Positions 35,385 through 37,922 of a stretch of DNA of 64,000 nt are shown one piece after another; within the stretch, counting starts at the first letter, position 1; every line of letters begins with the position of its first letter. Made by a program: the position numbers and the translations under genes. Source of the DNA: an uncultured Caulobacterales bacterium (GTDB lineage: Bacteria > Pseudomonadota > Alphaproteobacteria > Caulobacterales > Caulobacteraceae); NCBI GenBank assembly GCA_903862425.1, contig CAIOYC010000009.1, forward strand, positions 124,001 through 188,000, in the 5' to 3' direction. The notes beneath the pieces are model-generated. The model ran no database searches, had not been told where the DNA came from, and saw only the letters and a program-made list of their open reading frames with translations.

Positions 35385-36134
35385 ATGGACGCTTCCGCGC
35401 GTGATGCGTTAACTGGTCGCGTGAACCAGGACGAATTGAGATCAGGTCTGGAAACCCTCACGGCGCGAGAGCGGGAGTGTCTGCGCCTCGTTTTCGCCGG
35501 CCTCCGCGCCAAGGAGGTGGGGGAGCGCCTCGGCCTTTCCGACGCGACGGTCAACAATCACCTCGCCGCCGCCCGCCGCAAGCTCAATATCAGCGACAGC
35601 CGTCTCGCCGCCCGCCTCCTCGTCTCGCACGAGCGCACCGGTCAGGTAGTGAAAGATTGGCTAGATGAAACGACTACCATAGTCGAAGCCGCCGCTCTCG
35701 AGCTTGATCAGGCCACTCGAGAGGAGGGCGCGAGTGGATACAGACCTACCCCACACACTGATCCGGACCAGCTCGGACGGCGGGACAATCCTGCCTTACG
35801 AAATGATCCGGGACGAGCTCCAGGCATTGGCTCCATCGCAGTTCGCGATGGTGGACTATATGCTCGGGGACCTGATGGATCGGGCTCCGACCCTGTCGGA
35901 CCGGGACCAGATCCGGGAATTGATGATCGTGGTGCTGAGCGCATTGAGCCCAGGCTTCCCACACAACCGGAACCGCAGACTGCTCGACAGCTGACGGCGG
36001 CTCAGAAGGTCCTGTGGATCGGGGGCCTGACGATCGGGATCGCATTCGTGGCGGGGGCCGCCCTGCCGGGCATGCTGCTCCTGGTGCACGCACTGCAAAG
36101 CTTTGGGGCCGGGAAGCCACTTCTGGTCCACTGA
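35385..36134 (+). CDS. LuxR-type HTH protein with C-terminal membrane segment; middle part may be dual-coding
   Basis: A 249-residue frame. Residues about 20-85 form a LuxR/GerE HTH (LTARERECLRLVFAGLRAKE, then LGLSDATVNNHLAAARRKL). Residues about 115-200 are a Gly/Pro/Asp/Arg-rich stretch with poor third-position GC, whereas an overlapping frame there looks strongly coding. The last 50 residues regain good codon bias and contain one membrane helix (VLWIGGLTIGIAFVAGAALPGMLLL, positions about 208-232). Many Caulobacterales HTH proteins have this HTH-linker-membrane plan, so the long frame can be real. Two compensating sequence errors are the alternative. Confidence 0.65.
   Translation: MDASARDALTGRVNQDELRSGLETLTARERECLRLVFAGLRAKEVGERLGLSDATVNNHLAAARRKLNISDSRLAARLLVSHERTGQVVKDWLDETTTIVEAAALELDQATREEGASGYRPTPHTDPDQLGRRDNPALRNDPGRAPGIGSIAVRDGGLYARGPDGSGSDPVGPGPDPGIDDRGAERIEPRLPTQPEPQTARQLTAAQKVLWIGGLTIGIAFVAGAALPGMLLLVHALQSFGAGKPLLVH
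35734..35994 (+). CDS. candidate gene nested out of frame inside the HTH gene
   Basis: A possible 86-residue protein starting at GTG 35734 with a strong ribosome site (GAGAGGAGG ending 8 bases upstream), in the +1 frame relative to the HTH gene. I count roughly 75-80% G or C at third positions, against roughly half in the overlapping HTH frame over the same bases, and the product has a balanced composition (ILPYEMIRDELQALAPSQFA, then two probable helices). I do not recognise the family. It is either a true overlapping gene or the correct frame of an HTH protein hit by two frameshifts. Confidence 0.5.
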   Translation: MDTDLPHTLIRTSSDGGTILPYEMIRDELQALAPSQFAMVDYMLGDLMDRAPTLSDRDQIRELMIVVLSALSPGFPHNRNRRLLDS

Positions 36135-36174: not shown

Positions 36175-36552
36175 ATGGACGACGTTACGCGCACCCGCCT
36201 TGGGCGGGAAGGAACCCGCTTGATTCGCGACATCGAGGATGCGGTGGACAATGCGATCGCTCTGCACGGGCAACTGGTGGCCTTTCTGCCCCAGGCGCGC
36301 AAGGACGCCGGTCTGTCGGCCGTGTTCGGCCAAGGCATGTTCGATCAGGCCAGCGAACTGCTCAGCGACCTGACCCAGGCCCGCCGTCGTGTGGTCAGCA
36401 CCCACCGCAGCGCGGAGGCCATGGCCCGCTATGTGGGCTATGTGCAGATGGGCCCGGGGGACGACAAGGGTCCGCCGAACGCCGACATCGCGCCGGAAAT
36501 GGTCGCCATGCCCCCGCTTCGCGTGGTCAAGGCCCAGGGAAAAGCGGCCTGA
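36175..36552 (+). CDS. hypothetical protein, helical
   Basis: A 125-residue protein of unrecognised family. It is mostly helical in appearance: LIRDIEDAVDNAIALHGQLV and FDQASELLSDLTQARRRVVS alternate charged and hydrophobic residues. No signal peptide or membrane helix. GGAG lies about 12 bases before ATG 36175. It follows the HTH gene by 40 bases and is followed by a long hairpin, so it probably ends this transcription unit. It may be related to the HTH protein's job, but nothing in the sequence says so. Confidence 0.65.
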   Translation: MDDVTRTRLGREGTRLIRDIEDAVDNAIALHGQLVAFLPQARKDAGLSAVFGQGMFDQASELLSDLTQARRRVVSTHRSAEAMARYVGYVQMGPGDDKGPPNADIAPEMVAMPPLRVVKAQGKAA

Positions 36553-36555
36553 CGA

Positions 36556-36589
36556 TACGCCCGCCGCGTCTTTGGACGCGGTGGGCGTA
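36556..36589. terminator. strong 15-bp hairpin with TTTG loop
   Basis: The arms 36556-36570 (TACGCCCGCCGCGTC) and 36575-36589 pair over 15 bases with one G-T wobble and a four-base loop. It lies directly after the stop at 36552. No T-run follows, so it may be a rho-assisted terminator or an mRNA-end stabiliser. A second shorter GC-rich hairpin follows at 36609-36627. Confidence 0.55.
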
Positions 36590-36652
36590 CCCGGCTGATG
36601 TTCGGGCACGCGGCGGCGTCCGCCGCGGCCCCAGTTCGAGTATGGAGGGCGC

Positions 36653-36862
36653 ATGGACGTCGCTGAGGATGTCAGGAGCCATATCCACGACAGCCTGCTC
36701 GACCTTCGTCGGCGGCTGGAGCGGGAGACCGTTCTTCAGATCGCCCGTGCGGTCCTGGCCGGGGCGAGCGATGCGCTTAGCGAACTGGCGGAGAGCGAGC
36801 CTGGTCCGGCCGTGGAGGAGCGGGCCTTCGAGCCGCTCGAGGGGCAGGCGCCGAAGCACTGA
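36653..36862 (+). CDS. small hypothetical protein
   Basis: A 69-residue acidic, helical protein (HIHDSLLDLRRRLERETVLQ, then AGASDALSELAESEP) with no Cys and no signal peptide. GGAGGG just before ATG 36653 supports this start. It lies between the two-hairpin region and a small membrane protein gene 44 bases downstream. Family unrecognised. Confidence 0.55.
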   Translation: MDVAEDVRSHIHDSLLDLRRRLERETVLQIARAVLAGASDALSELAESEPGPAVEERAFEPLEGQAPKH

Positions 36863-36906: not shown

Positions 36907-37359
36907 ATGATCAGGATCGACGACCGCGTCATCATCGAAAACGCCGTCTATTACGCGGCCGGAGGCTTTGCGTTGTGGAAGGGCGGCCGGTGGGAACGCT
37001 TCATCTCCGGCGCCCTTCTGGTGCAGAACACCATCAGCGCCGTGATGCAGGACGCCCGGCGACTCGAAGACCCGAGATATGTCACCCTGACCCTCGACGT
37101 GGCGGTGCTCGCCTGCCTGCTCTATGTCGCGTTCAAGTCCGATCTGCGCTGGACGCTGTTGGGTAGCGCCCTGCAGATTCTCGTCGTTCTGACCTTCGTG
37201 ACGCGCATCATCGATGCGTCGATCAACAGCTGGGCTTATGTCACGGCGGATATCGCGCTGAGTTTCGGCCTGATGGGCGCGGTGCTCTATGGCGTAGTGC
37301 AGCACCAGCGGCGGCTGAAGGCCGCCGCCAGAACCCTCAGCGCGCCGGGCGGGCCATGA
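36907..37359 (+). CDS. hypothetical membrane protein with about four helices
   Basis: A 150-residue protein with three to four hydrophobic helices in the stretches VTLTLDVAVLACLLYVAF, TLLGSALQILVVLTFVT and YVTADIALSFGLMGAVLYG, plus a weaker one near residues 12-25. It ends in a basic cytosolic tail. Family unrecognised. Its 3' end overlaps the 3' end of the opposing XRE gene by 23 bases, an unusual tail-to-tail overlap. No clear ribosome site precedes ATG 36907. Confidence 0.65.
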   Translation: MIRIDDRVIIENAVYYAAGGFALWKGGRWERFISGALLVQNTISAVMQDARRLEDPRYVTLTLDVAVLACLLYVAFKSDLRWTLLGSALQILVVLTFVTRIIDASINSWAYVTADIALSFGLMGAVLYGVVQHQRRLKAAARTLSAPGGP

Positions 37360-37711
37360 CCTCGACCAGATCGAGCAGGCGCTTGCGCGGCTCCCCGGTC
37401 GGCATCTGCTGATAGAGGGCGACGAGGCGGCGCAGTTCCGGCTCGGCCGACATCTTCACGGTCAGCGAATCGGACGGCGTATCGTTGCCGAGGCCCGGCA
37501 GGCCTTCAAAAAAGTCCGAGATGGCGACACCCAGAATCTGCGCCGCTTCATGAAGCTTGGACGCGGAGACGCGATTGGTGCCGCGCTCGTACTTCTGAAC
37601 CTGCTGGAAGGTGAGGCCCAGCCGTTCGCCTAGCATCTGCTGGGACATGCCCGCCGCCTTGCGAAGTTGCCGCAGGCGCGCACCGACATGCACATCAACA
37701 GGGTGAGCCAT
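37337..37711 (-). CDS. XRE family regulator, PraR-like
   Basis: A 124-residue regulator. The HTH (RLRQLRKAAGMSQQMLGERL, then TFQQVQKYERGTNRVSASKL) is of the type shared with PraR-like regulators of rhizobia. The C-terminal part is a short helical extension (LRRLVALYQQMPTGEPRKRL). I choose ATG 37711, which has GGAGAATGTA just before it, over a start 23 codons upstream. It sits beside a region with a perfect 12-bp palindrome (37923-37934) that might be an operator. Targets unknown. Confidence 0.88.
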   Translation of the reverse strand: MAHPVDVHVGARLRQLRKAAGMSQQMLGERLGLTFQQVQKYERGTNRVSASKLHEAAQILGVAISDFFEGLPGLGNDTPSDSLTVKMSAEPELRRLVALYQQMPTGEPRKRLLDLVEVMARPAR

Positions 37712-37922
37712 TACATTCTCCAAAGGTTGCGCCGCAGCATCTACACACCCGTTACGTGCCAAGCTAGTCCGTGGTTGCACGCTTGCAAGGGTGATTTCGT
37801 AATTTAGCGTGTCAACGGTGCGCCATCACGTCTGAAAAGATGAACTAAGCAACGATTGTGGCGGAATGCTATCCATCTCGACAAAGTGCATAAGGTTAAT
37901 GCAACACGGCGTTTCAGCATTG

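Follow-up and report, generated by a model that had tools for sequence, protein, structure and literature searches.

The window, a stretch of 64,000 nucleotides from an uncultured Caulobacterales bacterium of the Caulobacteraceae, carries on its forward strand a gene (35385..36134) for a protein of 249 aa identified from the open reading frame list, Pfam and AlphaFold2 as a LuxR/GerE-type helix-turn-helix (HTH) protein with a C-terminal transmembrane (TM) helix. The HTH domain (aa 24–77; 35454..35615, forward strand) matches Pfam PF00196 (GerE) with 51.4 bits and an E value of 8e-14, above the curated cut-off of 23.5 bits, and the original prediction of a LuxR-type host gene holds. The Pfam scan of the host protein returned matches to GerE and to sigma region 4, and no match to a LytTR domain. 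An alternative GTG start is present at 35421, where the open reading frame of a congener begins. AlphaFold2 models residues 1–116 and a helix at residues 205–242 with high or fair confidence. The latter (35997..36110, forward strand) is recognized as a membrane helix from hydropathy and from the AlphaFold2 model and is conserved in the HTH frame; only seven residues follow it in the model. The intervening linker (aa 117–204; 35733..35996, forward strand) is predicted to be disordered (pLDDT about 45–60). Since the HTH frame of the window includes no ATG, GTG or TTG in codons 90–221, its membrane helix can be reached only by translation through the linker. By prediction only, the host appears as a membrane-anchored regulator in which a GerE domain and a membrane helix are part of one polypeptide.

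The linker coincides exactly with a second gene of 86 codons (35734..35994), which is wholly contained in the 249-codon HTH gene on the same strand and in a different frame, +1 relative to that of the host. It is supported by the open reading frame list, homologues, stop avoidance and phase-specific substitution. It has a GTG start and a TGA stop, and the ribosome site reported in front of it is indeed present: a Shine-Dalgarno-like AGGAGG (35722..35727, forward strand) ends 6 nt before the GTG. Its product had been called protein-like, and AlphaFold2 predicts a confident three-helix domain (residues about 21–71; 35794..35946, forward strand; pLDDT about 93–95). This protein contains no cysteine, belongs to no family in Pfam, NCBIfam, PHROGs or PADLOC, and a fold comparison of its three-helix model with the PDB gave a best match of only E about 3. 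One row taken from a plasmid record was excluded from structure prediction.

The codon-position GC content of the region follows the two frames. Upstream (5′) of the overlap, GC at positions 1/2/3 of the HTH frame is 0.73/0.47/0.72; inside the overlap it is 0.79/0.62/0.41 in the HTH frame and 0.63/0.41/0.79 in the nested frame; downstream (3′), the HTH frame returns to 0.76/0.44/0.84. The coding signature thus moves to the +1 frame in the overlap and then returns, as originally predicted both for the strong third-position GC of the +1 frame and for the coding-like HTH frame on either side. This switch is not a chance feature because the pattern recurs, with phase-specific substitution rates, in about 100 distinct loci. 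The poor codon bias ascribed to the HTH frame within the overlap is also found. Its description as low-complexity needs to be revised: this segment is a genuine linker, probably disordered and, by inference from sequence, translated, although no protein data attest its translation.

The nested pair is followed, on the same strand, by a gene for a soluble helical protein of 125 aa belonging to a conserved family whose consensus includes LSAxVGQ (36175..36552), by a 69-aa open reading frame of no known family also present in the congener (36653..36862), and by a gene for a membrane protein of about 150 aa with 3–4 hydrophobic segments, a conserved operon partner of the WxGGxxER family (36907..37359). 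An XRE-family regulator, identified from the open reading frame list and locus comparison, converges on the operon from the opposite strand (37337..37780). None of the downstream proteins of the window gave anything above cut-off in Pfam, NCBIfam, PADLOC or PHROGs. In most loci, a soluble helical protein (about 110–135 aa) and a membrane protein (about 150 aa) are found downstream, often with an XRE gene nearby; XRE or HTH genes similar to that at 37337–37780 occur near four related operons, and at one locus a short open reading frame similar in size to the 69-aa one follows the operon. Between operon genes, ARAGORN calls an 88-nt tRNA-Ile at 36566–36653. Folding of this segment gives a hairpin of very high stability (z −4.0), and it resembles a hairpin or terminator more closely than it does a tRNA. 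The genome of the window also includes a second, diverged copy of the operon, with HTH-TM, nested, helical and membrane genes (contig 33, 59729–59941), and an XRE gene lies upstream of this copy on the opposite strand. Relatives of the 125-aa helical protein were seen at five loci of the family without a recognized HTH-TM gene in the fetched flank, as adjacent tandem copies in two genomes.

Homologue searches with both products, as suggested with the original prediction, showed that the congener and the wider family hold both genes at the same place. In the congener, the nested protein is 53% identical (E 8e-22) and the HTH protein 61% (E 4e-79). Between the two, conservation is strong in the HTH part and in the C-terminal membrane helix; over the overlap it is the nested frame which is conserved and not the HTH-frame linker. 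More distant HTH-TM genes in Caulobacteraceae also include a +1-frame open reading frame in their linker. A profile built from 18 nested proteins matches 196 of 299 family genomes, spread over 12 of the 22 genera (Caulobacter and Phenylobacterium among them), with no matches outside Caulobacteraceae in the order and class samples searched. Named records with the nested gene are mostly from Caulobacter and Phenylobacterium, together with Peiella and others, while Asticcacaulis is represented by plasmids. Across the Caulobacteraceae, the pair is sometimes present in several copies per genome. In profile-profile comparisons, most pairs among four other nested groups scored strongly and the window type more weakly: it matched the main family with E values of 6.6e-4 and 3.3e-3, compared to 0.2–0.5 for an unrelated control. 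To judge from these scores and from the identical position and phase, the window-type protein would be a divergent member of the main nested family.

The geometry of the pair is constant. The fetched loci gave 101 distinct nested hits. In 99 of these, the nested gene is wholly enclosed by an HTH open reading frame which extends into a C-terminal hydrophobic helix, and its phase is always +1. One of the two exceptions (L006) lies where a contig ends; at the second (L021), an open +1-offset reading frame of 633 nt with a TM segment covers the nested gene without an HTH hit. Where loci were fetched by the nested protein alone, the HTH-side frame was open through the overlap and ended in a hydrophobic tail in every named case (57/57). 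As far as sequence comparison can tell, the nested arrangement is kept by evolution across at least twelve genera of Caulobacteraceae. The observation originally made on this DNA is confirmed, and is more general than could be seen from the window alone.

We therefore consider it highly likely that one stretch of DNA encodes two genes, an HTH-linker-TM regulator and a small three-helix protein nested in its linker. This was the first of two options left by the original prediction, and it is backed both by the recurrence of the same geometry in independent assemblies from 12 genera and by the HTH frame, which is stop-free throughout the overlap and then resumes a conserved transmembrane segment. 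The nested gene, shifted by one base within the linker-coding stretch, would be translated from the same mRNA, starting at its own internal ribosome site. Initiation of this type, rather than frameshifting, is inferred, in the absence of protein or ribosome-profiling data. Programmed +1 frameshifting in the HTH mRNA could instead generate an HTH-nested fusion besides the full HTH-TM protein, the nested segment being the shifted C-terminus; this would fit both the invariable +1 phase and the fact that the nested frame is open for some codons 5′ of its likely start. We regard it as unlikely without dismissing it, given that independent initiation is suggested by the AGGAGG-GTG arrangement of the window and by an SD-like site and ATG at a constant position across 49 loci, a set rich in Phenylobacterium, where the nested ATG is preceded at about 7–13 nt by a conserved purine-rich site. 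A conserved shift site did not come to notice, although there was no systematic search for one. Over all members, an SD of at least 6 nt accompanies candidate nested starts in 19 of 70 cases (about 10.5 expected). This enrichment is modest, so that the exact nested start is uncertain in many members and remains a prediction; it is too weak to be accepted as proof of nested initiation.

Divergence by codon position was compared in 37 related pairs. At HTH positions 1/2/3 it is 0.10/0.08/0.35 before the overlap, 0.28/0.12/0.10 within it and 0.18/0.11/0.36 after it. The fastest site thus switches phase in the overlap and then switches back. Within the overlap it is HTH position 1, equivalent to nested position 3, in 36 of the 37 pairs, and the window and its congener show the identical switch. 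When both frames are compared in the same pairs, protein identity in the overlap is 0.86 in the nested frame and 0.67 in the HTH frame. The poor conservation of the HTH-frame linker could be taken to mean that only the nested frame is coding, that the functional HTH gene stops short of the overlap and that the TM part represents a relic or a small gene of its own. This is very improbable: in 33 divergent representatives (below 70% identity), no HTH-frame stop was observed in the overlap compared to 63.8 expected. The TM part moreover evolves like HTH-frame coding sequence and, in the window, has no start codon of its own. Nested four-fold sites in the overlap also diverge somewhat more slowly (0.302) than four-fold sites outside it (0.366 and 0.381), from which it appears that the host frame adds a mild constraint. 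The third frame of the overlap includes stops in all 33 representatives.

The second option of the original prediction, that two compensating indels, whether errors or real, put the middle of an ordinary HTH protein out of frame, has almost nothing left to recommend it: it would explain why codon bias and protein-like character shift to +1 over exactly this stretch, but not why 99 of 101 distinct loci, taken from independent assemblies, show this geometry, why nested genes possess their own start and stop or why stop codons are avoided in the HTH frame. A homologue in which the segment reads on in frame with the HTH would have counted against overlapping genes, and none was seen. Sequencing error and pseudogene formation were both rejected through the homologues. 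Equally negligible is the proposal that only the HTH frame is coding and that high GC and HTH codon usage produced the +1 open reading frame by chance, since, even though long same-strand phase-1 overlaps in bacteria have in general a purely compositional explanation (PMC2542354), composition does not account for the phase of the fastest site, for the higher identity of the nested protein, for profile matches in 12 genera or for a confidently predicted nested fold.

Two overlapping genes thus remain the preferred reading, and the sequence evidence shows both frames to be coding and under selection, which acts on the nested frame to preserve its protein sequence and on the host frame mainly to keep it open. 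Two proteins can share this DNA because the host linker, predicted to be disordered, needs mainly an open frame.

Operons similar to that of the window, with an HTH-TM gene but without a nested gene, were found in a different family of Alphaproteobacteria and on a plasmid of Sphingomonas. Host linkers are 46–119 aa long in the absence of a nested gene (n=9) and 97–172 aa in its presence (n=99). These related operons elsewhere, with their shorter linkers and no nested gene, suggest that the overlap probably arose within Caulobacteraceae, together with a longer linker. Probably in the ancestry of the Caulobacteraceae, an older HTH-membrane regulator would have gained the nested gene in its linker, where it either originated or was brought in; the choice between overprinting and the insertion of a coding segment is undecided. 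An origin of the pair from a phage or plasmid was considered and rejected: no relatives of the nested protein were found in phage records and viral contigs, and only two Asticcacaulis plasmids carry the pair.

The outer gene would encode a one-component regulator whose N-terminal LuxR/GerE DNA-binding domain is joined by a flexible linker to a C-terminal membrane helix. By inference, this regulator and the nested protein may form one membrane-tethered regulatory unit together with the soluble helical protein and the membrane protein encoded downstream. The likeliest reading of the nested protein, though a tentative one, is as a dedicated partner of its co-encoded membrane-tethered regulator, its function being inferred from neighbourhood only. 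It is also possible, although we would not assert it, that the whole represents an undescribed module of the Caulobacter family. In such a module, a membrane-tethered LuxR-type regulator and its small dedicated partner would be obligately co-encoded by overprinting on a disordered linker, and the downstream helical and membrane proteins would complete the system. If obligate overprinting were true, regulator and partner could be neither lost nor transferred separately.

Annotation rules generally disallow embedded genes (PMC8665328). Two Asticcacaulis plasmid records annotate opposite members of the pair, one the nested gene only (L066, 1769–2005) and the other the HTH gene only (L163, 1155–1841). 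The plasmid table is incomplete by design, so that these records are suggestive, and no more than this, of an effect of the embedded-gene rules. Database annotation can thus miss one gene of the pair, and many members of this unnamed regulatory operon may be half-missing. A literature search limited to open papers found no prior description of the nested pair. Fully nested bacterial genes are usually debated singly; a family-wide pair present in many copies allows selection to be read out for each frame from ordinary comparative data. It also exemplifies how a folded protein can be encoded over a disordered linker, both folding and disorder being predicted.

Among known systems, the host resembles the transmembrane transcription regulators, TTRs (PMC10269533), in which a DNA-binding domain and the helix that anchors it in the membrane also belong to one polypeptide. 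It differs in its LuxR/GerE-type domain, in its very short tail after the helix, in the second gene within its linker and in the lack of the periplasmic or extracellular sensing domain which is typical, although not universal, of TTRs; the words GerE and LuxR are absent from the main text of the TTR survey. HigX of Caulobacter crescentus (PMC13384398) is likewise a membrane-associated transcription factor in a Caulobacter, and the text of that paper makes no mention of an overlapping or nested gene. HigX is discussed among LytTR regulators, a class which differs from that of the GerE host, and was rejected as a member of the same regulator class. Fully embedded same-strand gene pairs include comS inside srfA of Bacillus. 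The Rz/Rz1 spanins of phages are also of this type (PMC6139136). As in the window, a short gene lies wholly within a longer one on the same strand in another frame, and both are conserved. Rz1 is an outer-membrane lipoprotein with a lipobox cysteine, a residue that the nested protein of the window lacks. Those pairs serve competence (comS) and phage lysis (Rz/Rz1), whereas the host gene here is chromosomal and encodes a membrane-anchored HTH protein, and the nested gene overlays its disordered linker across the family, sometimes in multiple copies.
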